Part shown: in pieces, positions 1 through 21,843 of the stretch
Layout: each line of letters starts with the position of its first letter
Position numbering within the stretch: the first letter of the stretch is position 1
IMG/VR virus record: IMGVR_UViG_3300005537_000071
Location: 1 to 21,843 of that record
DNA: 21,843 nucleotides
Origin: a virus
Strand: one strand, 5' to 3'
Notes under the pieces: generated by a model
The model's input: only the letters and a program-made list of their open reading frames with translations
Told to the model about the DNA's origin: nothing
Databases searched by the model: none
Program-made: the position numbers and the translations under genes

Positions 1-1145
1 TCGGGCAGCACGGTGAACACCTGGGAGCCCGCGTTGCCGGTGGCTCCGACGTTGCTCTTGCGGGTGATGACCGTGTTGGTGCCGCCGTCCGACCATGCGG
101 CTGCCTGGCCCTGGAGCGTGCTGCCTGAGACCACCACGTTGGAGCTGGTGTCGATCTCGATGCCGTTGGCCGGGTAGGTCACCGCACTGTTGACACCCAC
201 CTCAACGTTGACCCCGGAGATGGTGATCGGAACTGTGCTGCCGGTGATCTTGATGCCGTTGTTGTTGGTGCCACCGAGACCGTCACCATGGAACTTGCCG
301 CCCGAGATGACGAGCCCACCGCCGTCTGTGGATTGCCCGGTGGCCGCGTGAATGCGGAAGCCCTCTGAGAAGTTCTTGTCTGTGGTGCAGCCGTTGAACA
401 CGACAGAGCCAGCTGAACCGGTGAGGTCAAAGCCACGGCCCGCGCTCGACCACTCGGCCCGGCAGGCGTTGAACACGCAGTTCGAGTTGTTCTGGAGCGC
501 GTAGTTGTTCGCGACGCTGGCGAAGGCCAAGCAGTTCGTGAGCGTGGTGTCCGTGAAGTTGATCATGTTGAAACCGGTGTTGGTGGCGAGGTTCGTCGTC
601 ACCCGGTTCCAACGCTGATGGTAGGGGAACGTTGCTGTGATGCCTGACTCGGCCTGGCTGATCGCGTGCACACCGTTGTGAGGGGCTGAGGCGATGTAGA
701 CGTCTTCCAGGTGGGTGTCGTACACTGGCCCCTGGTAGAAGATGCCGTTGAGGTTGGCGTTGCTGTTCTGGGAGCCGTCGATGTAGAAGTTCCGCAGCCC
801 ACTTGACTGAGCGGTCACCGACCAGCCGCCAGGCGTCTTCGACAGGAACGAGATGATGCCAGTCGATGAGCTCGGGGCCCAGCTCGCAGCCGCGATGATG
901 CGGGGCACAGTGGTTGGTAGGGTGCCGAGGTTCAGTGTGATCTGCGTCTGGCCGACCATCATGACGAACGGGGGCACGCTGATGGTCGAAGACACCAGGT
1001 ACTTCGCAGTGGGGAAGAACAGCGTGCCGCCCCCAGCAGTGTTCAGAGCCGCCAGGGCAGCGTTGATTGCCGCTGTGTCGTCTGTGACACCGTCCCCAAC
1101 GGCCCCGTAGTCCTGCGGTGTGACGTAACCTACGAGAAACGGCAT
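1..1145 (-). CDS. Tailspike / pectate-lyase-fold minor tail protein (partial)
   Basis: This is the N-terminal 381 complete codons of a gene that runs off the left edge; I read the frame through to position 3 and found no stop. Residues 10-30 (PQDYGAVGDGVTDDTAAINA) are the hallmark opening of the Pectate_lyase_3 family, the start of a right-handed beta helix. The rest is rich in short Asn/Gly/Val/Ile strands such as GIKITGS and GIEIDTS, as expected for helix rungs. Such proteins sit at the tail tip and bind or cleave host surface glycans. No catalytic residues can be assigned because the C-terminal part is missing. The ATG lies 2 nt after the stop of the preceding minor tail gene, with GGAG about 10 nt upstream. 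The fold call is strong; an enzymatic role is inferred. Confidence 0.85.
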   Translation of the reverse strand, partial: MPFLVGYVTPQDYGAVGDGVTDDTAAINAALAALNTAGGGTLFFPTAKYLVSSTISVPPFVMMVGQTQITLNLGTLPTTVPRIIAAASWAPSSSTGIISFLSKTPGGWSVTAQSSGLRNFYIDGSQNSNANLNGIFYQGPVYDTHLEDVYIASAPHNGVHAISQAESGITATFPYHQRWNRVTTNLATNTGFNMINFTDTTLTNCLAFASVANNYALQNNSNCVFNACRAEWSSAGRGFDLTGSAGSVVFNGCTTDKNFSEGFRIHAATGQSTDGGGLVISGGKFHGDGLGGTNNNGIKITGSTVPITISGVNVEVGVNSAVTYPANGIEIDTSSNVVVSGSTLQGQAAAWSDGGTNTVITRKSNVGATGNAGSQVFTVLP

Positions 1146-1147
1146 GG

Positions 1148-1903
1148 CTAGTTGACTCCCGTGAGGAACCCGTTAGTGTACGTAAGGTTCCGTGTGTTCT
1201 GAAGATTGCCTGGCGTGGTCTGCCCGACCGTGAATTCAGTGATCTGACTCAGCAACCCCTGGCTATTATAGCTCACCTGGATTGTTCGCGCCCCATTGTC
1301 CTCAATGATGAACTGGAGCTGACCAGCGCCTGTCAGGTCGGTGACCTGGAACATGAGGCTGTAGTTCTGAAGAGTCCAAGTGACACCATCAGGAGAGGTG
1401 GCAGCCCCTGTCGGCTGGTTGGACTGCTGCCAGACGTAGTAGTTGCCGCTGGTCCCCACCATCTCCACCACAATGTGGTAGAAGGCGTTGGGTGTCAGGC
1501 CGGTCACAGAGATCGGTACCGTCAGCCAGAAGGGGGCCGAGTAGACAGCTGTCTCGCTGACCGTGGCTGTGGCCAGCGCGGGCCCTGTGGGAAGACCACC
1601 AGCATCTGCGTAGATCTGAACGGTCAACGGGCTGATTGTCTGGGTGACCGGGGAACCGCCCACCGTGGACAACTGAATGTTGACGCCGCCGATGGTGCTC
1701 TGGGTAGCTCCTGTGGCGAAGATCTGGGACAGCCACTGGGAGGTGGTCGACTGGTAGGTTGCGATTCCCACAGCGTTCTGGCTCTGGATGGTGCCACCTG
1801 AGCGCAGGAATGTGACCGAGTGGGAGCCCAGAAACTGGTTGATCATACCAGCGTTGGCCCCTTGGCCAGCAACCGCAGCCCGCCAGTTCTGAGTCGCGTT
1901 CAC
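1148..1903 (-). CDS. Minor tail protein, beta-rich (251 aa)
   Basis: GTG start with GGGGTG six bases upstream, three bases after the previous gene's stop. The protein has almost no charged residues and is dominated by Ser, Thr, Gly, Val and aromatics, typical of fibre or baseplate-periphery proteins. Residues about 60-150 resemble a jelly-roll or lectin-like sandwich (LTVQIYADAGGLPTGPALAT, then FYHIVVEMVG). The C-terminal 60 residues (QVSYNSQGLLSQITEFTVG, then RNLTYTNGFLTGV) look like the short terminal module seen on many actinophage minor tail proteins. Its place between the tail hub group and the tailspike fits a receptor-binding or tailspike-anchoring role. No enzyme motif is visible. Exact function is not known. 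Confidence 0.75.
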   Translation of the reverse strand: MNATQNWRAAVAGQGANAGMINQFLGSHSVTFLRSGGTIQSQNAVGIATYQSTTSQWLSQIFATGATQSTIGGVNIQLSTVGGSPVTQTISPLTVQIYADAGGLPTGPALATATVSETAVYSAPFWLTVPISVTGLTPNAFYHIVVEMVGTSGNYYVWQQSNQPTGAATSPDGVTWTLQNYSLMFQVTDLTGAGQLQFIIEDNGARTIQVSYNSQGLLSQITEFTVGQTTPGNLQNTRNLTYTNGFLTGVN

Positions 1904-1906
1904 AGG

Positions 1907-2479
1907 CTACACCCCGGCCAGCTGGAAAGTCGCCTGCAAGATCATTGTATTGGGGTTCGACACTGTGACAGTGGGCGTGAACACCCAATGGTCGAGCAGG
2001 GTTCCGGCTGTGGCGACCGTGGAGCCGTTGGCCGACCCGTTGGCAAAGACCCCGGCCTCACCCACCGTGTAACTGGTAGCCGGTGTGGCGAAGTAGAACG
2101 TCCAGATGACCTGCGCGTTGATCGTGGGCGTCGCCGGTGTGGAACTGCCAGCCCCCACTGTGACACGGGCCAGCTCTGCTGTCAACAGGGTGTCAGCCGC
2201 TGTGGCGGGGGTGGTTCCCGAGCCGATGGCCCCATAGAGAGGAGTCAGATAGGTGGCTGAGGGAATGCCCAGTGAGGCCGCCTGATCCTGCACACCGGAC
2301 CACACCAGAGCGTTGACGAGGGCTGTGAGACCCGCCGTGCACATGGTGTTGTCGCCCTCGCGCTTGTCGACCACATTGCCATCTGGGTCGACCACTGTCA
2401 AAGACAAACGACCGTTGATGGCCAGCAGCCCCGACGCTTCCAGCTTTGTCGAGTCTACGCCCATACTGACATTCCCCAT
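1907..2479 (-). CDS. Minor tail protein (190 aa)
   Basis: Hydrophilic, beta-rich protein. It has a recurring phage tail-fibre layout: a sheet-forming start (LSLTVVDPDGNVVD), then NTMCTAGLTALVNAL, then a Gly/Thr loop (YGAIGSGTTPATAADT), then TAELARVTV, a WTFYF strand and a VGEAGVFA segment. This resembles the 'G-T-G-T-T-P ... D-T-x-L ... E-x-x-R ... EAGLF' pattern of minor tail proteins, recalled from family knowledge. The start is ambiguous. ATG 2479 overlaps the upstream gene by 25 bases and has AGGA only 2 nt away. ATG 2464 (MGVDSTKLEAS) has GGGGA 8 nt upstream and may be the true start. It sits between a 69-residue protein and the 251-residue minor tail protein. Confidence 0.75.
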   Translation of the reverse strand: MGNVSMGVDSTKLEASGLLAINGRLSLTVVDPDGNVVDKREGDNTMCTAGLTALVNALVWSGVQDQAASLGIPSATYLTPLYGAIGSGTTPATAADTLLTAELARVTVGAGSSTPATPTINAQVIWTFYFATPATSYTVGEAGVFANGSANGSTVATAGTLLDHWVFTPTVTVSNPNTMILQATFQLAGV

Positions 2480-2664
2480 GTTCCTGCGTCCCAGTTGGGA
2501 TTCGACGTGACTGTGGCGGTGACCTTGTCAGACATGATCGCCTGCTCGTTGGTCGGGTTGAAGAACCCCTGAAGAGGGACGATCGAGCCCTGCGTCTGGT
2601 CGGTGTTCTGGTTGAGCTGCCCCAGAATATCCTGGAGTGTGTACGGACGGACTGTTCCCGCCAC
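2455..2664 (-). CDS. Small tail-module protein (69 aa)
   Basis: GTG start preceded by a full AGGAGG five bases away, the best ribosome site in the tail-tip block; this is why I accept so short a gene. The protein has a Gln/Asn-rich amphipathic start (YTLQDILGQLNQNTDQTQG) followed by SIVPLQGFFNPT and a Trp-containing end. Its end overlaps the next gene's start. It follows the tail hub by nine bases. I do not recognise a family. A small tail-tip accessory or chaperone role is only inferred from position. Confidence 0.7.
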   Translation of the reverse strand: MAGTVRPYTLQDILGQLNQNTDQTQGSIVPLQGFFNPTNEQAIMSDKVTATVTSNPNWDAGTWGMSVWA

Positions 2665-2673
2665 GTCTGCCTC

Positions 2674-4113
2674 CTAGATCCTGATGGCCTTGATCTGACA
2701 CTGCCGGTAACCACCCTGGATGAACTGGATCGAGTTGCCGATCACGATGAAGGTGGCGTTCGTGAGGCCCCAGCTGTAGTTGTTCCGATCGTCTGGCACC
2801 AGCGAATTGGTCAGAGTGAACGTCTGACCTGCTCGAATCCACCCCAGCCAGTCAGGTGACGTTGTGAAGGTGAAGCGGTCGACCACGGTCGCGTATTCCT
2901 GCTGCTGGCGGAATGCGATGGCCTGAGCCATGTTGACGGTGGTCAGGGATGTGTCGGAGATGTATTCAGCGAAAACGCCGTGGTTGGGGCCAGTGTAGAG
3001 CTGTTGACTGGCGATGTCGTTGGCCTGGGCGATGATCGGAATCTGGTAATCGTACCAGATCTTGATGGTGCCACCCGAAGGCACGTGGCCGACTGGCGCA
3101 TTCAGGAACCAGGCTCCGATTGCGTTCTGGGCCACGATCCATGTTGGGGTGGTGTCGCCTGGGGCCGGGGTGAACGAACCACCCGCCTGAACGACCGCCA
3201 CGGCCTGCTGCACTGTGCCCAGCTTGACGACGGGTGTTCCTGACACAGTATACCGCAATGGGTAGGCCAGCGAGCCCGCGTTGAAGGTGTCGGTGGGCTT
3301 GTCGATCTTGGCGTTGCCATACTTGACGATCTGAGTAGCGCCCTGAACCAGGATGCGGTTTCGAACGCTCGCGCCATCCCACTCGTAGCTGAACGAGTTG
3401 TTGAAGAGCATGTGCCCTTCGGTCAGGTTGGGCGTAGACGAAGCAGAGTAACTCAGACTTGTCGTGAAATTGACTCCAGACTTCTGCGCCGTGGTCTGAT
3501 CGAAGAAGTGGAGGTTCAAATTTTCGTCTACGAACCATCCATAGGGAGTCACCAACGAGGCCAGCTTGGCCAGCTTGCGCCAGGCGTCGCTGAGCGTCGA
3601 ATAGTTCAGCACGAAGGACTGGATCAGGGGCGCAGTGGTGACAAAGCCGGGCTGACCACCAGTGGACTTACCAGTCTGAATGGCCTTGATGCCGCAGTTG
3701 GCCTGCTGAGTCAGACTGACGATGATCTCGTCGATGGTCTTGCCGATGAAGGTGCCCTGCACGATGGCGTTGTCGGCGTAGAACGTGTAGTCTGTGCAAC
3801 TCAGGGTCCACTCGTTGCGGTTGATCTCCGAGTTGAGCTGAACATCTGTGACGACGCCCGCGAACAGGTTCTGGTTGGCCGTGTGGTCGAAGAACTGGAT
3901 CTGGCTGAGAGCCTTGATCACGAAGTTGGGGGTAGTCCGGCCCGAGTAGTCGTCCACGACCACGAACGAGGCCGTGTCGCCCTGACGACCGAAATTCTGT
4001 GTGATAGAGGGCGCGGTTGAGCCACCCCATGCCAGGTTGTTCGAGAAGTCGGTCTGCGAGCCACCTGGCGGGGTGATCTTGAATGAGATGTTCGGTACGG
4101 GGATGATCGACAT
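2674..4113 (-). CDS. Tail hub / baseplate protein (Tal/gp27-like, 479 aa)
   Basis: It starts three bases after the tape-measure stop, the usual place for a distal tail or hub protein. Residues 1-130 form a beta domain with the pattern 'FFDHTANQNLFAGVVTDVQ ... EWTLSCTDYTFYADN'. Phage hub proteins use this pattern to describe how a local frame is modified. Residues about 185-225 (LSDAWRKLAKL, TPYGWFVDENLNLHFFD) match the central hub motif seen in siphophage Tal and gp44/gp27-like proteins. The C-terminal third has AIAFRQQQEYATVVDRFTF and a conserved-looking WLGWIRAGQTFTL. It probably caps the tail tube and carries the fibres. No lysozyme or peptidase domain is visible. Family placement comes from motif recognition, not a search. 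Confidence 0.75.
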   Translation of the reverse strand: MSIIPVPNISFKITPPGGSQTDFSNNLAWGGSTAPSITQNFGRQGDTASFVVVDDYSGRTTPNFVIKALSQIQFFDHTANQNLFAGVVTDVQLNSEINRNEWTLSCTDYTFYADNAIVQGTFIGKTIDEIIVSLTQQANCGIKAIQTGKSTGGQPGFVTTAPLIQSFVLNYSTLSDAWRKLAKLASLVTPYGWFVDENLNLHFFDQTTAQKSGVNFTTSLSYSASSTPNLTEGHMLFNNSFSYEWDGASVRNRILVQGATQIVKYGNAKIDKPTDTFNAGSLAYPLRYTVSGTPVVKLGTVQQAVAVVQAGGSFTPAPGDTTPTWIVAQNAIGAWFLNAPVGHVPSGGTIKIWYDYQIPIIAQANDIASQQLYTGPNHGVFAEYISDTSLTTVNMAQAIAFRQQQEYATVVDRFTFTTSPDWLGWIRAGQTFTLTNSLVPDDRNNYSWGLTNATFIVIGNSIQFIQGGYRQCQIKAIRI

Positions 4114-7969: not shown

Positions 7970-8545
7970 CTATGACTTGGACTTACGGTTGTACTTGTCA
8001 AGGGTAATTCTACGGCAAACCCAGCACTTGCGACCACCTGACGGAGTGAAGAAGTACGTTCCCTCCGACTGCCAGTCGTGTCCGTTAATGCAGAGAGGTC
8101 GGTTGAACACTTCTTCGGCCTGCCTACGCATGTGCTCTTGGTGAGTGACCGGGTCTAGATGCTCAGGGTTGACGCATTTCCGGTTCTTACACAAGTGATC
8201 AAGCTCAAGCTCTGAGATGTCCTCGGTTCGAAGGAGCTCGAAAGAGAACCGGTGAGCTGACACATTCTTGGGATGCAACTTGAAAAGGCCGTATCCCAAC
8301 CGATTGAGTCCGCTATCCCAGTCCCAACAAGGGGCCAGAGGTTCGCCCGTTATATAGTTGTCATGCGAAGGGCCCTGCTTGTTGACCTTTTGCCAGAAGC
8401 GATTGGTCGGATCACCACCGTAAGAACGAGGAGTTCTCCCTGACTGAACACGCTCAGTCATGTACTGAGTCATGTAGTGGCTGCTGCAAAGTCCCTTGGC
8501 TTTGACCTTGGATTCACACTTGGAACAGGTGCTAGGGGTTGTCAT
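7970..8545 (-). CDS. HNH homing-type endonuclease (191 aa)
   Basis: Residues 114-140 carry the HNH core: LDHLCKNRKCVNPEHLDPVT. D116/H117, N126 and H129 are the metal and catalytic positions, and C119/C124 are structural. An upstream SAHRFSFELL (H98) fits the HNH_3 arrangement. An N-terminal C7-C10-C20-H23 cluster and a C-terminal LCINGHDW ... CWVC cluster (C152, C174, C177) look like added zinc fingers for DNA binding. The gene stands alone between the major tail and chaperone genes, and its base composition is visibly more A+T rich than its neighbours. There is no good SD before the ATG. It probably cleaves DNA to spread itself or to exclude rivals; it is not needed for virion assembly. No intron was identified. 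Confidence 0.9.
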   Translation of the reverse strand: MTTPSTCSKCESKVKAKGLCSSHYMTQYMTERVQSGRTPRSYGGDPTNRFWQKVNKQGPSHDNYITGEPLAPCWDWDSGLNRLGYGLFKLHPKNVSAHRFSFELLRTEDISELELDHLCKNRKCVNPEHLDPVTHQEHMRRQAEEVFNRPLCINGHDWQSEGTYFFTPSGGRKCWVCRRITLDKYNRKSKS

Positions 8546-12870: not shown

Positions 12871-13476
12871 CTACTTCAGGAGCTTGACAAGCGCGGCCTT
12901 GCCTGCACGGTGGTGCGGCTTGAGACCACGCTCTTCGGCCAGCGCGCGCAACTGGTCCTCGTCAAGAGCTTCGAGGTCTGCTAGGCTGGCGCTCTTGTTG
13001 GTCTGGTCGGGCTCGATTGTGGCGATCGGCTGAACAGCGAGGTTCAGGCCACACTCAGCGCAGAAGCGAGCGTTGCCAGAGTTGTCGGTGTTGCAGGCAG
13101 AGCAGTGCTTGACGTTGCGGTCACGCTTCGGCTCGTTGCCAGAGAACATTTCGGCCAGCTTCGCAATCGCGGCTGGCAGGTCACCGAGGCTGGAGAGCTT
13201 GGCCAGCGCCTCTGCTGTCTGGTTCTGCTGGTCCAGTCGGCCCTTGGTCTCCTGGTCAGTACGGTACTCCAGCTCGTCCGGAGTCTCGGGGATACCGCTG
13301 ATCGTCGGTGACCAGTGGGAGTCCTTACGCAGCACATCCTCGCAGGACGGGCAGTCAAGGCTCCACAGCTTGACAGGGGCACCCTCACGAACGGGTCGGC
13401 TGTGCAGATCGCCGCAGCCTCCGTGCTCAGGTGAGATGGTCACCGCAGCGATGTCGCTACGGGCGTGAATGGTCAT
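12871..13476 (-). CDS. Zinc-ribbon protein with C-terminal HeH/SAP-like helix pair (201 aa)
   Basis: ATG with GGAG about six bases upstream. C42-C45 (with C21 and nearby His) form one possible metal site. C125-x2-C128 and C139-x2-C142 form a clear zinc ribbon (CSACNTDNSG, then FCAECGLNL). Between them is a Gln/Ala-rich helical stretch (residues 75-112). The last 35 residues (LADLEALDEDQLRALAEERG, then AGKAALVKLLK) look like a helix-extension-helix or SAP/LEM-type nucleic-acid-binding end. Such a protein might bind DNA near the portal or act in assembly. Function not known. Confidence 0.75.
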   Translation of the reverse strand: MTIHARSDIAAVTISPEHGGCGDLHSRPVREGAPVKLWSLDCPSCEDVLRKDSHWSPTISGIPETPDELEYRTDQETKGRLDQQNQTAEALAKLSSLGDLPAAIAKLAEMFSGNEPKRDRNVKHCSACNTDNSGNARFCAECGLNLAVQPIATIEPDQTNKSASLADLEALDEDQLRALAEERGLKPHHRAGKAALVKLLK

Positions 13477-15561: not shown

Positions 15562-17403
15562 TTAGCTGAACGGAGTCACGTCCGAGATCTGGAGGCCCTG
15601 GAGGATGCCGCTGTACTGCGGAGCGTGCGCCGTCATGGCACCGTACATGAAGATCGAGTAGCGGAACGTGGCGTCGATCACAGGCCAGGCGATGGACATG
15701 TAGTCCTGCACGACCGTCATCTCCCACGCGTTCGCCACGTTGGACCACGTCTGAGGCAGCTGGTAGCTCATCAGCATCGCGGTGCCCTGGGTCAGCCACG
15801 GGTGGACGACCAGCTTCAGGACGGAACGGGTGATCGGGTTCTGGAACTCGGAGACCGCCGCGCCAACCCGGACGCCACCGACGTCAGGCTGGTCCAGGAA
15901 GAGGCGGTAGTTGGTGGCAGCGCCCTGGCTGATCACGTCGTTGGAGAGGCGCATGATGTCGCCACCCTCACCGACGATCTCGGCCGGGTCCGCACGGAAC
16001 GCGCCAGGGTTGTTACCCGCGCCCTGAGCCCCGTCCCACAGAGCCTGGAGGGCAGTGTAGAGTACGTTGTAGCTCAGGTGGGTACCAACGCTCTGGTTGA
16101 CGTAGCCGCCCTGCCAGTTGGCCGGGTAAACGCCAGAAGAGGCGCTCTTACCGGTCAGGGTCGGGATCAGACCCTCCATGCGGTTGTTGTTGCCTGTGCC
16201 CGTGTCCGCTGACGGAGGAGTCGCACCAGAGGTCAAAAGCGCGCCCTGGATGGTGAACTTGACACCACCGATTCCGGACTTCTGGAGGAACGCGTTGGAG
16301 ATGGTCGGCGACGCGTTGGTGCTGACGTAGACGTTGTAGCTCTGGATACCAGCCTGCGGGCCGATCACCAGGTCGACAACCTGACCAGAAGTGGTCGAGA
16401 TGGTTGAGGACTGCGCCGAAGTGGTCTCGCCATAGAAGTTGGTACCAGTCACGAAGACGGTGAAGTTGGTGTTGGCACCAACCGTGGTCTCGCCGGAACC
16501 TGCGGTACGGGCGGTCAGACTGACGATGGTCGGAGCGGCCAGCGTGGTGCTGGAGCCCGCGATCATCTGGTACTCCTCGCCCAGCATGAACTGCTGGAGA
16601 AGGATCAGGTTGGCCAGCGCCGAGATGTCCTCGAAGCCCTGTCCCGCGAACTGGGCCAGCCAGCTCAGAGACTCGGTCATACCGAAGAACTTGTACGGCA
16701 CGTTGAGGGTGACCTGGCTCTGAGAACCGGCCGGTGGCAGGTTGAGAGGCCAGTTGGTTGTGCTCATGGCCGCGTTCTGCTGGACCAGCTCAGGCACGGA
16801 GATGTCGACCACGCCCTGGCCACCGGTCTGAGAACCGGAGATACCAGTGAAGACCTTCTCGATGCGGCTGGTACCCTGGCCCTGAGGACGCGGCAGCTTG
16901 TTGCGGAAGACCGTGTACATCGGGTAGATGAGACGGCTCGGGGCCAGCAGGTCGAACGGCACGAGACCGTAGATCGAACCGATGCCCAGGTTGCCCGCAG
17001 TGAAGCTCTTGACAGCGTCGCCGCCACCAGGCAGACTACCGACCAGCTGCTGGACCTGCTCGCCAATGGACGGGGCGGACAGCGCTGCGTTCAGGTAACC
17101 GAACTGGTTGAGGAAGCCCTGGTTGAGGCCCTTGGTGACCGACTGGCGGTCAGAGTAGCCTCGGTAGGTCGAAGTGCGCAGGTCCATGGTGGCCTGAGCG
17201 GACTTCTGAAGGATCTGAGTTGAGTCACTCAGGGGGGTGTTGCCACCGGGAGTTGCGTAGCCCGCGCCCTTGACCATGTAGGCCATACGGGACTTGAGCA
17301 TGTCACCCGTGTTGCTGTACTTTCCAGCGTCGCGAGCTGCGTCGTTGAGGACGGAGCCCGAGATGCCCGCTGGGCCGATGTTCTCGGCGTTCAGAGTCTC
17401 CAT
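15562..17403 (-). CDS. Major capsid protein with Ig-like insertion (613 aa)
   Basis: The C-terminal end (NPITRSVLKLVVHPWLTQGT, then QTWSNVANAWEMTVVQDYMS, then DATFRYSIFMYGAMTAHAP) matches the capsid proteins of several actinophages. It follows the prohead protease, the usual order. Residues 1-120 are an N-arm and helical region, perhaps including a delta domain cut by the protease. Residues about 290-400 look like an inserted Ig/FN3-type beta domain (PTIVSLTARTAG, then NFTVFVTGTNFYGETTS, then AGIQSYNVYVST) flanked by Gly/Ser/Thr. The ATG lies in a 15-nt inverted repeat, CTCCATA-C-TATGGAG; the nearest SD-like AAGGG is 13 nt away. A strong terminator follows. I infer an HK97-like fold. Confidence 0.9.
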   Translation of the reverse strand: METLNAENIGPAGISGSVLNDAARDAGKYSNTGDMLKSRMAYMVKGAGYATPGGNTPLSDSTQILQKSAQATMDLRTSTYRGYSDRQSVTKGLNQGFLNQFGYLNAALSAPSIGEQVQQLVGSLPGGGDAVKSFTAGNLGIGSIYGLVPFDLLAPSRLIYPMYTVFRNKLPRPQGQGTSRIEKVFTGISGSQTGGQGVVDISVPELVQQNAAMSTTNWPLNLPPAGSQSQVTLNVPYKFFGMTESLSWLAQFAGQGFEDISALANLILLQQFMLGEEYQMIAGSSTTLAAPTIVSLTARTAGSGETTVGANTNFTVFVTGTNFYGETTSAQSSTISTTSGQVVDLVIGPQAGIQSYNVYVSTNASPTISNAFLQKSGIGGVKFTIQGALLTSGATPPSADTGTGNNNRMEGLIPTLTGKSASSGVYPANWQGGYVNQSVGTHLSYNVLYTALQALWDGAQGAGNNPGAFRADPAEIVGEGGDIMRLSNDVISQGAATNYRLFLDQPDVGGVRVGAAVSEFQNPITRSVLKLVVHPWLTQGTAMLMSYQLPQTWSNVANAWEMTVVQDYMSIAWPVIDATFRYSIFMYGAMTAHAPQYSGILQGLQISDVTPFS

Positions 17404-17464: not shown

Positions 17465-20203
17465 TTACAGTCCCCGCATCTTCATGAGAGACGACCAGGC
17501 AGCCTCCCGCTGCGCAGGGTCGGGGCTGTTGCGGAACTGAGTTTCCAGCTCACGCATCATCATCAGCTGGGTCTGCTCCGCAGTCTCAGCGACCGAGCGC
17601 GCCGTTGGGGACGCGCCCTTGTGGATCGGGTGGGTGAGAGCTACACCCTTGAACGCTGCCACGTTCGGGTCAGGCAGTGCCGCCATGGAATCGACGGTGG
17701 CCTGAAGCTGCTCGTTGCGCTTACGCTCTGCCTTGAGGGACTTGGTCAGAGTCTTCAGCTCCGCTGAGAACTCGTCCTTCATGCCCTGGAGCAGTGCGGC
17801 GATGTCGACCGGGGCAGCCTCGACTGGGGCAGCAGCCTTGGCGACCTCGGGCTCCTCGCTCTTGCTTGCGCGATTCCCTACCGGCTGTGGTACGGTGGTG
17901 TCACCAGCAGGGACGTGGCCGAGAGACTCGGTTCCGCCCGGTGAACCCATCGGGCACAGGTCCGGGAAGGTGTGTGAGATGTGGTCGTGGATGGCGTTCA
18001 TCGCGGACTTCGCAGCGTCGCGGGAAGCGCCAGAGAAGTCGATCGTCTCGATGCGGCCAGTGGCCTTCGGGTAGGCGATCGAGTCGTTGGCCTTGCTGGA
18101 GTTCGAAGGAGACTCGTCAGCGTGACCGCTTGACAGGTAGCCGCCTGAGAACTGGCTGGCAGCAATGCCGCCGTCAGGGACGTCAGCCGTGTTCGGGCTC
18201 TCCTGGCCGCTGGACGGACGACCGTGGCCAGCTGTGATCAGGGGGCGCTTGAACTGGCCAGCGCGGATCTGGGTGGGAACCGGAGCGGTGCCAGGGCCGA
18301 TCTGGGCGTCCTTGAACGCCTTGTGGGCCTCGTGGCGGATCTCCAGAACCTCGGTCGGGTTGTCGATCGCGCGGCTCTTCACGGCCTCGGCAGCCTGCCA
18401 GCGGTTGCTCGCGGCGACAGCCTCGTCCAGTGGAGCGCCAGCCGCAGCGTTCAGCGCCTCGGTCTGCCAGTAAACGGTGTCCATCGACTTCAGTGAGTGC
18501 GACGGGTGGCACTTCTCGGCGTCGTCGGGGTGAAAGCCGGGGCACAGCAGGTCGTGAAGGGCACCGAGGTCAGCCGGAACGTTCATGCCCTTGAGGAGCA
18601 TGGCGGTCTGAGTGGCGTGGTCGAAGCTCTTGCTGGTCTGCGTTGAAGGAAGCCCATCAACGGACTGCGCCTCAGCCGGAACCGGGATCTTGCCGTTCTT
18701 CTTCGGCTTCTTCTCGTAGACACCTGTGGCAGGGTCCAGAGACTTGGGCTTCGGCTGCTTCTTCTTCGGCTTCTTGGCCTCGGTCACAGAGTCGACCGGG
18801 TCGGACTCCTTCGGCTCGCCCACAGAAGTGGTGGCCCCTGACGGAACGTCAGCCTTGGTGGCGTCCTGGCCGTCGTGCTGAGCACCAGCGTGCTGCTGCA
18901 TAGGAACCTCGACGTGGAGCATACCGTCAGACGCCACGTTGGGTCCTCCGTTGTTCTGGTCGCCCTTGTCCACGGGAGAGCCGCAGCCAGGGCAGAAGTT
19001 CATGTGGTCGTCCATCTCATACCCACATGGGCAGTTGCACTTGCCGATAGCGGCTGGCTCCTGACCGGGCTGAGGTGGGGCCTGGTGGGCCTGAGGCTGG
19101 CTCATGTCGCCCTGACCTGAACCCGGAGCCGGGTGAGCTGGCCCAGGAGCGGGAGCAGCGTGCTGAGGCATCTGGCCGGGGGCTGGAGCCGCAGGAGCGG
19201 GAGCGTGGCCGACAGGAGCGGCCGGGTGAGGTGCGCCAGCAGGTGGCATGGCACCGGGAGTCGGAGGAGACTGGGGCGGATTGGCCTGCATGGCGTACTT
19301 GTCCACCTTGCTGCCCTTCTCACTCGTCCAGCTCTCAGGAAGTTCGGCCACGAAGGACGGACCCTTTCGACGGGCGATCCGAATGATGTTCCGCTTCAGC
19401 TTCTCGCTGGAGTAGTTGGACGAACCAGCGCGGCCAATAGAGGAGGCAGCATCGGAAACATCGCCCGGAGTCACGATGGGGAATGAACGGTCGCGACCCG
19501 CGAAGTCAGAAGCTGGGAGCTTGTCGCGGTCGACGCCGCCACCGACATCCGGGTCCATGTTGCGCTTCTCGGCAGCCTGACGGTGCGCGAGCAGCTTGGC
19601 CAGGTCGGCAGGAGAGAAGGTTCCGGCAGCCTTCTTGACAGTGTCATCGCTGACACCCTCGTGGAAAACCCCGGTCAGCTGGGCCTTGTTGGAGCCAGCA
19701 GCCTTGGTGGCAAGTTCCAGGTAGCTGTTCTTGTTGGCCGGACGGTCAACAATGGACAGCTCGGACAGCTCACCGCCACAAATAATGCCACCAGGCGCAC
19801 GACCGGATGGGTCACGCTTGATAACAGGCTGGGAGATGCCTACACTATAGGCACGGAGAATGCCCTTCTCGACCAGCCGCTGGGCAACAGGGTCCACAAC
19901 GACAGACTTGACCCAGTGCTGGCCATTGCCGTCACGGTCGAGCTCTACGCTGAGGCCCTTGCCGACGGGGCGCTGTGGGTCGTGGCTCATCCGGACGTTT
20001 CCGCCCGTGCTCAGCCAGTCTGCCAGAGCCTTGCCTGACCACTCCGGGTCTACGATCTGACGGTCGCTGTCGACGGTTCCGTCTGTGGCAACACCGTAAA
20101 CGACAAGGTCGCCGTCAGCGTCCCGCTCGGTCTTCGAGATAGGGAAGCTGAAGGACAGCGCCTCAACGTCTGTAGACGAAGGCTCAGTTAGAGTGGTGGC
20201 CAC
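17465..20203 (-). CDS. Prohead protease-scaffold-like fusion with zinc ribbon (912 aa)
   Basis: GTG start with AGGAG four bases upstream. Residues 15-165 are an HK97-type prohead serine protease (U35-like): H74 in RMSHDPQRPVGKGL, S120 in LRAYSVGIS, and E145/E148 in GELSELSIVDRPANKN, matching the His/Ser/Glu positions of the family. Residues 225-295 (DRDKLPASDFAGRD, then KRNIIRIARRKGPSFVAELP) resemble the DUF6582-like part of other phage proteases. Residues 308-385 are Pro/Ala/Gln-rich. Residues 389-407 have a zinc ribbon (CNCPCGYEMDD, then MNFCPGCGSP). A Lys/Pro-rich stretch is at 477-505. Residues 800-840 are a coiled coil (LLQGMKDEFSAELKTL), the likely scaffold part. It processes prohead proteins before DNA packaging. 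Usual proteases are about 200 residues; this one is more than four times longer. Confidence 0.9.
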   Translation of the reverse strand: MATTLTEPSSTDVEALSFSFPISKTERDADGDLVVYGVATDGTVDSDRQIVDPEWSGKALADWLSTGGNVRMSHDPQRPVGKGLSVELDRDGNGQHWVKSVVVDPVAQRLVEKGILRAYSVGISQPVIKRDPSGRAPGGIICGGELSELSIVDRPANKNSYLELATKAAGSNKAQLTGVFHEGVSDDTVKKAAGTFSPADLAKLLAHRQAAEKRNMDPDVGGGVDRDKLPASDFAGRDRSFPIVTPGDVSDAASSIGRAGSSNYSSEKLKRNIIRIARRKGPSFVAELPESWTSEKGSKVDKYAMQANPPQSPPTPGAMPPAGAPHPAAPVGHAPAPAAPAPGQMPQHAAPAPGPAHPAPGSGQGDMSQPQAHQAPPQPGQEPAAIGKCNCPCGYEMDDHMNFCPGCGSPVDKGDQNNGGPNVASDGMLHVEVPMQQHAGAQHDGQDATKADVPSGATTSVGEPKESDPVDSVTEAKKPKKKQPKPKSLDPATGVYEKKPKKNGKIPVPAEAQSVDGLPSTQTSKSFDHATQTAMLLKGMNVPADLGALHDLLCPGFHPDDAEKCHPSHSLKSMDTVYWQTEALNAAAGAPLDEAVAASNRWQAAEAVKSRAIDNPTEVLEIRHEAHKAFKDAQIGPGTAPVPTQIRAGQFKRPLITAGHGRPSSGQESPNTADVPDGGIAASQFSGGYLSSGHADESPSNSSKANDSIAYPKATGRIETIDFSGASRDAAKSAMNAIHDHISHTFPDLCPMGSPGGTESLGHVPAGDTTVPQPVGNRASKSEEPEVAKAAAPVEAAPVDIAALLQGMKDEFSAELKTLTKSLKAERKRNEQLQATVDSMAALPDPNVAAFKGVALTHPIHKGASPTARSVAETAEQTQLMMMRELETQFRNSPDPAQREAAWSSLMKMRGL

Positions 20204-20290: not shown

Positions 20291-20518
20291 TTAGTAGTCT
20301 TGAGCGCTTTCATTCGCGGGTTCGACCAAAGGCTCGCCAGGCACGACAAACACCCTGGCCACCCAGCCCTCATTCGAGGTGGCAAACACAATGCCCGCTT
20401 CGGTAAACACGGTATTCTGCTTGGCCTTGACCGTAAGGCCCTGAGCTTCCAGGACATTGAGTCCTTCAGCGATTTGGCTCAGGGCCTTCGACAGAACGTC
20501 GATGTTGGGGGTCTGCAT
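20291..20518 (-). CDS. Hypothetical protein (75 aa)
   Basis: ATG overlaps the stop of the portal-ParB gene (TAATG). Small protein with a helical start (NIDVLSKALSQIAEGLNVLE) followed by a short beta region (GIVFATSNEGWVARVFVVPG) and acidic end. No family recognised. Its place between portal and protease suggests a small head-assembly protein or a co-factor, but this is inference. An 87-base gap with a promoter-like site separates it from the protease gene. Confidence 0.7.
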   Translation of the reverse strand: MQTPNIDVLSKALSQIAEGLNVLEAQGLTVKAKQNTVFTEAGIVFATSNEGWVARVFVVPGEPLVEPANESAQDY

Positions 20519-21843
20519 TACCCCGCCGAGTGGATCAGGCCGGAAGGCGTCTGACCAGTCATCTTGGAGTAACGAACCTGGCAGAACGTCTGGGCGTTCT
20601 CCAACCCGAGAGTCTGAGTCGCCAGCGTGACACAGCGGGAGATGTCACCTGTGGTGCCCCACTTGATCTGGCTGGCTCCCGCGCCCGTCTCGAAGAACTC
20701 GATCAGGGTCGGATCGACCATCGCGCCCTCTTCGGTCTGAACCGCCGCAGGATCAGTCGCTGGCTGTAGAGGGGCCGTCGGAGACGCTAGCGGAACACCA
20801 GGACCAGAGCCGTCGGCCAGACCGCCACGAGCCCCACCACCGAAGTCGCCAGGCCCCTTGATCGCAGGCTTGATCTCCTTCTCGGTGAACTCACGAGCAT
20901 CCACCAGACCCTTGACAGCAGGCGAAGTCTCCTGAGAGCTGTGTGTCTGCTCCCAGCGGTCGTCGCCCTCGGTCACGAACCCGATGTAGGTCACGAACGG
21001 AACCTCAGCCTTGAGGCTGGCCAGGTAGCGGTGGTGGCCGTCAACGATCTTGATCCGAGAGTCGCCCTCGGTCTGACGCACACTCACACCAGGCTTGAGG
21101 CGCTTGCCCTTCTTCAGGAGCTTGACGAACTTCGCCACCTTCTCAGGTTCGTGGCTCGCCGCCCACCCATCGATGTCGTCCGTGTCCACGCGCTCCAGCG
21201 GAACCTCTATCGGTCCGATCCATGTGGCGTCGCGCATCCACTTGATGGCCTTCGGCGGGAACTTGTCAAGCATCATGTTGTAGACATGCTCAGCAGCTAC
21301 CGGGTTCGGGTCATCGAGGTCAGTCGCGCCCTTGGGCTGGAACTGCATGTCGTTCACATCGTGCGGCTTCTTCTCGTAGCCACCGTGAACGCCCTGTGAC
21401 GTGCCTGGCTCCCAGTCTCCCAGAAGGTCACGCCAGAATACCTGGCCAGCGGAGTCGACTACTCGCTGCTGGCGGACCATCTCGACCGCCTGGTCAACGT
21501 CAGCGCCCTTGGCCATGAACTCGTTCACACGGGCCAGCACGTCAGCAGACAGGTGGCGGGGCTCCCACTCGGAAACCTTGCGCCCCTTCTTGACGTGGCG
21601 GGCCATCGACTCCAGCTCGCTCAGAATAGCACGAGTCTTGCTGGCGAAGATACGACTGATGTCGGTCTCGTCAACGTCCTCGGGCTGAATCAGCTGAGCC
21701 GGGCGCTTACCCTGGCCAGCCGCCTGAGCATTGGCCAGGTCTGCGACCCGCTGACGGACATCATCCGGAGCCATCCGCAGGTGATTCTCCTCGTCCAGCG
21801 GCTTGAACGAGGTGTCCTTCGGCTTGGCCTCTTCGAACTCCAG
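20518..21843 (-). CDS. Probable portal-ParB-like fusion protein, C-terminal part
   Basis: The frame is open to the right edge (21843), so the start is outside the window. Counting from the Met at 21774, residues 45-90 (KTRAILSELESMARHVKKGR, then LARVNEFMAKGADVD) resemble the helical C-terminal end of siphophage portals. Residues 190-266 are a ParB/Srx-like domain (VPLERVDTDD, then KIVDGHHRYLASL; the GHHR motif is typical). After a Gly-rich linker, residues 354-418 form a small Cys-containing end (IKWGTTGDISRCV, then FCQVRYSKMTGQTP) that recurs in actinophage head genes. Portal identity is inferred from position and partial similarity, as the core is not visible. In some phages such ParB-like domains are nucleases; catalysis here is unproven. 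The stop overlaps the next start. Confidence 0.65.
   Translation of the reverse strand: MEFEEAKPKDTSFKPLDEENHLRMAPDDVRQRVADLANAQAAGQGKRPAQLIQPEDVDETDISRIFASKTRAILSELESMARHVKKGRKVSEWEPRHLSADVLARVNEFMAKGADVDQAVEMVRQQRVVDSAGQVFWRDLLGDWEPGTSQGVHGGYEKKPHDVNDMQFQPKGATDLDDPNPVAAEHVYNMMLDKFPPKAIKWMRDATWIGPIEVPLERVDTDDIDGWAASHEPEKVAKFVKLLKKGKRLKPGVSVRQTEGDSRIKIVDGHHRYLASLKAEVPFVTYIGFVTEGDDRWEQTHSSQETSPAVKGLVDAREFTEKEIKPAIKGPGDFGGGARGGLADGSGPGVPLASPTAPLQPATDPAAVQTEEGAMVDPTLIEFFETGAGASQIKWGTTGDISRCVTLATQTLGLENAQTFCQVRYSKMTGQTPSGLIHSAG

Follow-up and report, generated by a model that had tools for sequence, protein, structure and literature searches.

A 912-residue candidate protease-scaffold polyprotein encoded just before the major capsid gene of an uncultured virus

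The stretch of DNA analysed here (the window) is a virus record on its own, 21,843 bases long, and carries on its minus strand an ORF encoding 912 residues (17465–20203), which is our protease-scaffold candidate. The ORF begins with GTG preceded by the Shine-Dalgarno sequence TAGGAG. The initial annotation had proposed a single ORF of this length without giving its strand, and it indeed runs free of internal stops. Its parts follow one another in one frame: the protease, a domain that we call RSFPI, a linker, a middle helical domain (block 3), and a predicted coiled coil with C-terminal helices. These parts and the major capsid gene downstream all lie on the minus strand, and coordinates are those of the window unless a locus is named. 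In 64 distinct full-length proteins including the window's (860–1292 residues, the relatives being counted stop to stop), the parts come in this order within a single frame just before the capsid gene, and the ORF is therefore not an artefact. Its start column holds a start codon in 61 of the 64 aligned proteins, and a start codon together with a Shine-Dalgarno-like site in 57. We conclude that the ORF is real and uninterrupted; it is ordinary in plan and unusual in its size and its middle part.

A scan with the ORF itself yielded one close viral relative over residues 1–912 (61%), and a scan using the downstream capsid protein of 613 residues yielded 79 loci. By BLAST, 76 of 81 loci have a homologous stop-to-stop ORF ahead of the capsid gene; L033 and L034 carry the ORF though BLAST missed both, and L024, L056 and L070 start within or just ahead of the capsid gene. 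The block counts were made with HMMs for four blocks instead of BLAST. A single ORF joins the protease, the RSFPI block, block 3 and the C-terminal block in 147 of 159 loci; there is overlap among the loci, since many contigs are present twice, and L002 is the window itself. Seven of the 12 remaining loci have an ORF truncated at the locus end (L017, L026, L087, L115, L125, L133 and L152), and the other five are the three that begin at the capsid gene and two distant phages (L082 and L083). All relatives are IMG/VR contigs except L160, which lies on a contig binned to an Armatimonadetes MAG. There the protease, block 3 and the C-terminal block share one ORF of at least 1097 residues adjoining a capsid protein that is 46% identical, while the RSFPI block was not detected in that ORF. 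A pattern scan of genome contigs with block 3 gave no match. As the capsid-protein scan found L160, which carries block 3, and the block 3 scan did not, pattern scans of this kind miss relatives. None of 50,697 annotated phage records had a match covering 80% of the 912-residue protein. Two alignments took in 60 of the 64 proteins each, one leaving out L018, L027, L044 and L064 and the other L073, L018, L044 and L064. The tree is a quick tree of the 64 full-length rows with the linker columns excluded, in which 17 of 60 inner branches are weak. In the open-access literature nothing was found that joins a zinc ribbon with a phage scaffolding protein or prohead, and its titles and the opening parts of its abstracts hold no description of the 912-residue protein.

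The protease domain (residues 24–165; 19709–20134) was delimited by conservation, an AlphaFold model and structural alignment. Four residues, H74, S120, E148 and D153, are present in all 64 proteins, and by resemblance H74 (19982–19984) and S120 (19844–19846) are the candidate catalytic residues. The AlphaFold model is confident across residues 31–160 (pLDDT blocks 87–96). In VIA-align the top match of model residues 25–154 was T4 gp21 (5jbl; Z 11.6, rmsd 2.4 over 123 residues), and the varicella-zoster protease was about level with it (Z 11.3, rmsd 3.2 over 120). The top Foldseek matches in the PDB were likewise herpesvirus proteases (best E 1.5e-3). Sequence profiles place the domain below the cut-offs of both Pfam S78 (PF04586; 18.4 vs 21 bits) and the NCBIfam HK97 protease (TIGR01543; 18.5 vs 59 bits). 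The best PHROG is a family of unknown function (E 4.4e-14) and the second a head maturation protease (E 6.1e-8). Thus, the domain described at first as a normal HK97-type protease does appear to be a prohead protease, but by sequence it is not an ordinary HK97-type one, and its model lies nearest to T4 gp21 and the herpesvirus assemblins. The model points to a prohead-protease fold for the N-terminal part, which may act on the capsid protein.

The RSFPI domain (about residues 220–297; 19313–19546) was recognised from the model, hhalign and a PDB sequence match. Together with the protease it aligns to the head maturation protease of the Alicyclobacillus phage MMB025 (hhalign probability 99.7, E 3.7e-27, 251 columns). 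The only notable PDB sequence match of the domain is to residues 281–319 of crAss001 gp45, and it is weak (E 3.5e-4 when the family profile is the query, 0.041 for the window sequence by itself). DUF6582 (PF20223) matched the region in one of ten proteins scanned, L031, at E 0.063 and 14.1 bits against a cut-off of 27.3. The domain may be of the DUF6582-like type, which is common in phages.

The linker (residues 298–525; 18629–19312) is mostly disordered in the AlphaFold model. The stretches of biased composition described earlier are confirmed: Pro and Ala make up 54% of residues 301–385 (19049–19303) against 23% overall, and Lys 33% of residues 470–505 (18689–18796) against 6% overall. Between them lies a zinc-ribbon-like unit (residues 389–407; 18983–19039), seen from Pfam and from the cysteine pattern; the cysteines of the window linker are 389, 391, 393, 404 and 407. 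Pfam Zn_Ribbon_1 (PF13240) matches residues 393–411 at E 1.4e-4, under its cut-off (22 vs 25 bits), and passes it in L076 (40.6), L029 (28.2), L031 (25.8) and L005 (25.5). Among ten proteins scanned, Zn_Ribbon_1 and DZR are above the Pfam cut-off in some members, and DnaJ_CXXCXGXG falls under it in L018, L031 and L021.

Counted by pattern, at least one zinc-ribbon-like unit is found in 43 of the 64 proteins; a narrower pattern gave 40, and the wider one was adopted. The number of CxxC..CxxC units is 0 in 21 proteins, 1 in 17, 2 in 16, 3 in 9 and 4 in 1. The initially annotated zinc ribbon C389–C407 is therefore present in the window copy but is not a conserved part of the family. DnaJ-like units occur in 11 proteins, and 14 of the 21 proteins lacking a zinc-ribbon unit have C-x(2-4)-H-x-H..KC. 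Cysteines number 403 in 12,606 linker residues and 314 in 49,875 residues elsewhere. On the 64-row tree the presence of zinc units switches at least 7 times and their number changes at least 18 times; the close relative L004 retains just one Cys pair. These sequences suggest that the units, which may bind zinc, have been gained and lost repeatedly. A motif HREPDG stands ahead of block 3 in 45 of the 64 proteins and is absent from the window. In the linker of L160 (ORF at 2–3295 of that locus) a DnaJ-like CxxC unit occurs once and a motif resembling EKYSPDQxRDDHGR[WF]G twice.

Block 3 (residues 526–753; 17945–18628), defined by the model and by conservation, is a helical domain with five invariant residues (H550, D551, C554, H739 and C750, in 64 of 64 proteins). 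Modelled alone, it has a mean pLDDT of 76.5, with values mostly of 95–98 in the helices of its first 108 residues, and its last helix spans 198–220. A fold in which the first and last helices bring the two HD..C stretches together would suit a metal site, and from the sequences H550, C554, H739 and C750 may be the ligands of a single metal ion. L160 retains both the HDxxC stretch and the HD..C stretch. The loop in between (residues 641–723; 18035–18283) carries family-specific [FY]xR..GH motifs: the pattern [FY]xR[PGA]x[LIVFQ]xx[GD][HQR][AQE] occurs in 105 copies across 58 of the 64 proteins, and in 5 ORFs among 2.6 million residues of other six-frame ORFs. The middle region singled out in the initial annotation for its CHPSH does lie here, at residues 565–569, but CHPSH itself is poorly kept (C565 in 14 and H569 in 5 of 64), and it is the surrounding domain that holds the invariant H, D and C residues.

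Searches with block 3 gave no match at E ≤ 1 either by tblastn against the 50,697 phage records or against PDB sequences. With 60 members, Pfam and PHROGs gave single-member weak matches only (best E 0.031 and 0.022). The best structural matches were also weak, by Foldseek E 5.1 in the PDB and 4.2 in BFVD, and by VIA Z 2.6 at rmsd 6.5 over 76 aligned residues. Block 3 has no convincing match in the libraries searched, which is not thereby proof of a new fold.

Downstream of block 3 the AlphaFold model has a long helix at residues 801–841 (17681–17803), followed by helices 871–892 and 896–909 (residues 871–909; 17477–17593, from the model and the alignment), and the protein ends in the conserved DPAxREAAWxxLxKMxG. 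The long helix agrees with the C-terminal coiled coil suggested at the outset, but the heptad-periodicity test is weak, with p 0.09 for the window and a shuffle p ≤ 0.05 in 23 of the 64 proteins. The next gene encodes the 613-residue major capsid protein (15562–17403), identified by its position and by its resemblance to the protein annotated as major head protein in MMB025. The gap between the two genes is 43–151 nt (median 75, 77 loci), and therefore no separate scaffold gene fits into this interval.

On the other side of the ORF a portal gene is found upstream in L001. The portal protein upstream in the window (20518–21774) is apparently fused to a ParB-like domain; in L001 (1873–5856) a 1327-residue protein matches portal at 94–524 and ParB-like at 1044–1113, and 101 ORFs of the overlapping loci match the window's part of this portal/ParB-like protein. 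The protease frame of L018 (2694–6572) and L044 (3023–6871) runs on for some 240 residues further upstream, and the extension in L018 includes low-complexity sequence that begins MAGFNPAEPRSVTGQWTTG; this looks like a fusion to the upstream gene. The capsid gene is unbroken in the window and split into 2–4 coding pieces, at several positions, in 11 of 77 loci (L035, L039, L041, L044, L069, L072, L073, L077, L078, L079 and L080). In L078, L035 and L041 group I introns coincide with the breaks and pass the Rfam cut-off, and two in L080 fall just below it (E 1.6e-9 and 3e-9); at the thresholds used Rfam gave no group I intron at the breaks of the other seven. Further along, the head-tail region encodes a second zinc-ribbon protein (12871–13476; double zinc ribbon just under the cut-off), whose relative in L001 (13179–13775) has an additional SAP domain above the cut-off. 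An HNH endonuclease gene (7970–8545; PHROG 826, E 7e-37) adjoins the tape-measure gene.

Candidate cleavage sites were sought in the capsid protein and in the ORF. The motif [KR][SN][FV]T stands at the start of the conserved core of the capsid protein in 144 of the 155 loci with a capsid ORF (79 distinct ORFs), and in the window this gives the candidate site K132|S133 (K132, 17008–17010). For comparison, the HK97 capsid protein is cut at K103/S104 according to a passage of PMC10275583. In two cultured relatives the capsid-site sequence is repeated in the protease linker: in MMB025 as KKTFDTSSGLQPYNLE vs NKTLDTSSGLQPYNLD (z 13.9) and in the Thermoanaerobacterium phage THSA-485A as AKTLNVASGLQMYNLE vs EKDLTVASGLSNYNLD (z 5.9), both in 16-residue comparisons. 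For MMB025 we predict that a capsid cut at K37|T38 would give the N-terminus TFDTSSGLQPYNLE, and that a protease cut at K271|T272 would give a fragment starting TLDTSSGLQPYNLD. The same comparison gave no repeat in Polewnik (z -0.2), PSTCR5 (z 0.6) or L160 (z -1.0), and the best match in Herbaspirillum (z 3.0) lies away from the capsid site. The repeat in MMB025 and THSA-485A is firm, and by extension the window protein may be cut at sites of the same kind.

One such candidate is K167 (19703–19705) in the motif [LIV]xK[SA], which we place after the protease domain. Across 28 representatives, which are homologous so that the counts are not independent, [VIAL]xK[SA] was compared with shuffles and is enriched in all four linkers, with 56 vs 10.2 in the first, 62 vs 23.7 in the second, 57 vs 15.9 in the third and 12 vs 3.2 in the fourth. 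It is not enriched in the protease (14 vs 11.9), the RSFPI domain (3 vs 8.0) or the coiled coil (10 vs 9.1); the folded helices of block 3 do show an excess (53 vs 13.6). A second candidate is K628 (18320–18322), which a profile of the capsid site ranks first in 40 of the 64 proteins and among the top three in 53; permuted profiles averaged 9.6, and 1 of 200 reached 40. Against 514 real capsid windows, a stricter null, it came second (36/64, shifted by three) or about tenth (27/64, as trained) by count, and its score was not outstanding. This weakened the permuted-profile result, and K628 is therefore only suggestive as a capsid-like site. L160 has V at this position.

Taken together, we consider it rather probable that the ORF product is a P2 gpO-like polyprotein joining a prohead protease to an internal scaffold, which cuts the capsid protein and probably itself. 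This reading is based on the P2 gpO precedent, the single ORF, the protease fold, the conserved H74 and S120 and the K|S motif of the capsid protein, and also on the lack of an adjacent separate scaffold gene and of a conserved nested start. The combined role of protease and scaffold, judged probable in the initial annotation, is supported at that strength. The N-terminal 165 residues would be the serine protease, and the remainder of the chain would travel into the procapsid, where the coiled coil and C-terminal helices probably drive assembly and grip the capsid protein. Block 3 would be a lineage-specific folded part of the scaffold core, and the linker a tolerant spacer in which zinc-binding units come and go. 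After closure of the shell the protease would remove the capsid residues up to 132 at K132|S133, and similar sites with Lys before a small residue would be cut in its own linkers. What we infer here is the proteolysis, the scaffold and metal binding, and what becomes of the pieces. Against the scaffold part of the reading, searches gave the C-terminus no scaffold homologue, and the support for the coiled coil consists of a single model and a heptad test that is weak. A second scaffold may also not be needed, since the capsid protein has about 132 residues ahead of its candidate cut, and such a stretch is the scaffold in HK97.

Regarding the zinc units and block 3, we rate spacer and core parts as most likely and cargo second. 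As cargo, the protease would be freed near residue 167 and the C-terminal 740 residues would stay as a virion-internal protein, possibly bound to the portal or to DNA and ejected on infection, with the zinc units part of the delivery. We regard this as unlikely, and keep it mainly because of the RSFPI match to crAss001 gp45 and the virion peptides over that stretch: according to passages of PMC10172136, the cargo protein gp45 has parts in the tail and the capsid of the crAss001 virion, and its peptides 275–300 and 307–320 were detected in virions. The fast change of the zinc region on the tree is also what a payload may undergo. However, the piece shared with gp45 is shorter than 40 residues and of a domain type that we take to be common in phages, and a coiled coil with short C-terminal helices beside the capsid gene suits a scaffold better. 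Doubtful to a greater degree is the specific version in which the virion-internal protein is built around a helical domain metal-stapled by H550, C554, H739 and C750, its exchangeable zinc modules being a lineage-specific payload that first meets host DNA or proteins.

We also find it improbable that the metal-binding units are a functional switch, by which zinc or redox state would activate or release the protease, and not a spacer. The concentration of cysteines in the linker would fit such a switch, as would the C-x(2-4)-H-x-H..KC motif in most of the ribbon-less proteins and the DnaJ-like units, but a required switch should persist, whereas the presence of the units changes repeatedly on the tree and L004 is left with one Cys pair. 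Very improbable is a scaffold made separately from an internal start, as with herpesvirus UL26.5 or lambda Nu3, two well-known protease-scaffold genes that work so. Window residues 423, 435 and 881 do combine a start codon with an SD-like site, but when the 64 proteins were scanned no internal start-plus-SD column was conserved in frame besides M881, present in 20 of 64 and leaving 32 residues. An assembly error or frameshift fusing two genes is ruled out by the 64 distinct proteins from many assemblies and by the more distant L160, and nothing was found in its favour. Thus, the frameshift, assembly error and internal-start pieces that the initial annotation had raised against its own proposal were each looked for and none was found.

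If the preferred reading, a protease-scaffold polyprotein, is true, the plan of P2 gpO, in which one chain is both protease and scaffold, reaches about 900–1290 residues in these uncultured tailed phages, with a folded domain absent from the searched libraries and a linker open to unrelated zinc-binding units. It would then offer a direct test of how far a scaffold core can be elaborated. The repeats in MMB025 and THSA-485A suggest in addition that the cleavage sites of such polyproteins can be recognised in sequence when the capsid protein and the protease linker are set side by side.

Among known systems, crAss001 gp45 shares with the window protein the stretch of less than 40 residues like the RSFPI domain; it is an 842-residue virion cargo protein in which no further similarity was found. 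T4 gp21 and the herpesvirus assemblins are alike in protease fold, as judged from the model comparison. In T4 the scaffold comes from separate genes, and in herpesviruses a nested gene is a further source of scaffold. Tsac_2860 of THSA-485A is a 661-residue protein encoded before the capsid gene, headed by the protease domain and with a linker that repeats the capsid-site sequence, but the RSFPI block and block 3 were not detected in it and no zinc units were seen. The MMB025 protein (XXN61403.1) has the protease and the RSFPI domain in the same order, followed by the capsid gene; it differs in its 523 residues, in which no zinc units and no block 3 were seen. The available passages of the MMB025 paper (PMC13141910) make no mention of a maturation protease, scaffold or major head protein. 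The closest parallel in plan is P2 gpO, which passages of PMC7552001 describe as a protease (residues 1–141) and a scaffold (195–284) in one chain that cuts itself and the N-terminus of the capsid protein. The window ORF likewise has a predicted N-terminal serine protease and, ahead of the capsid gene, a downstream helical region that we suggest is the C-terminal scaffold. By that description P2 gpO has 284 residues against 912 here, and the RSFPI domain, the linker with its zinc units and block 3 are what the window protein has in addition.
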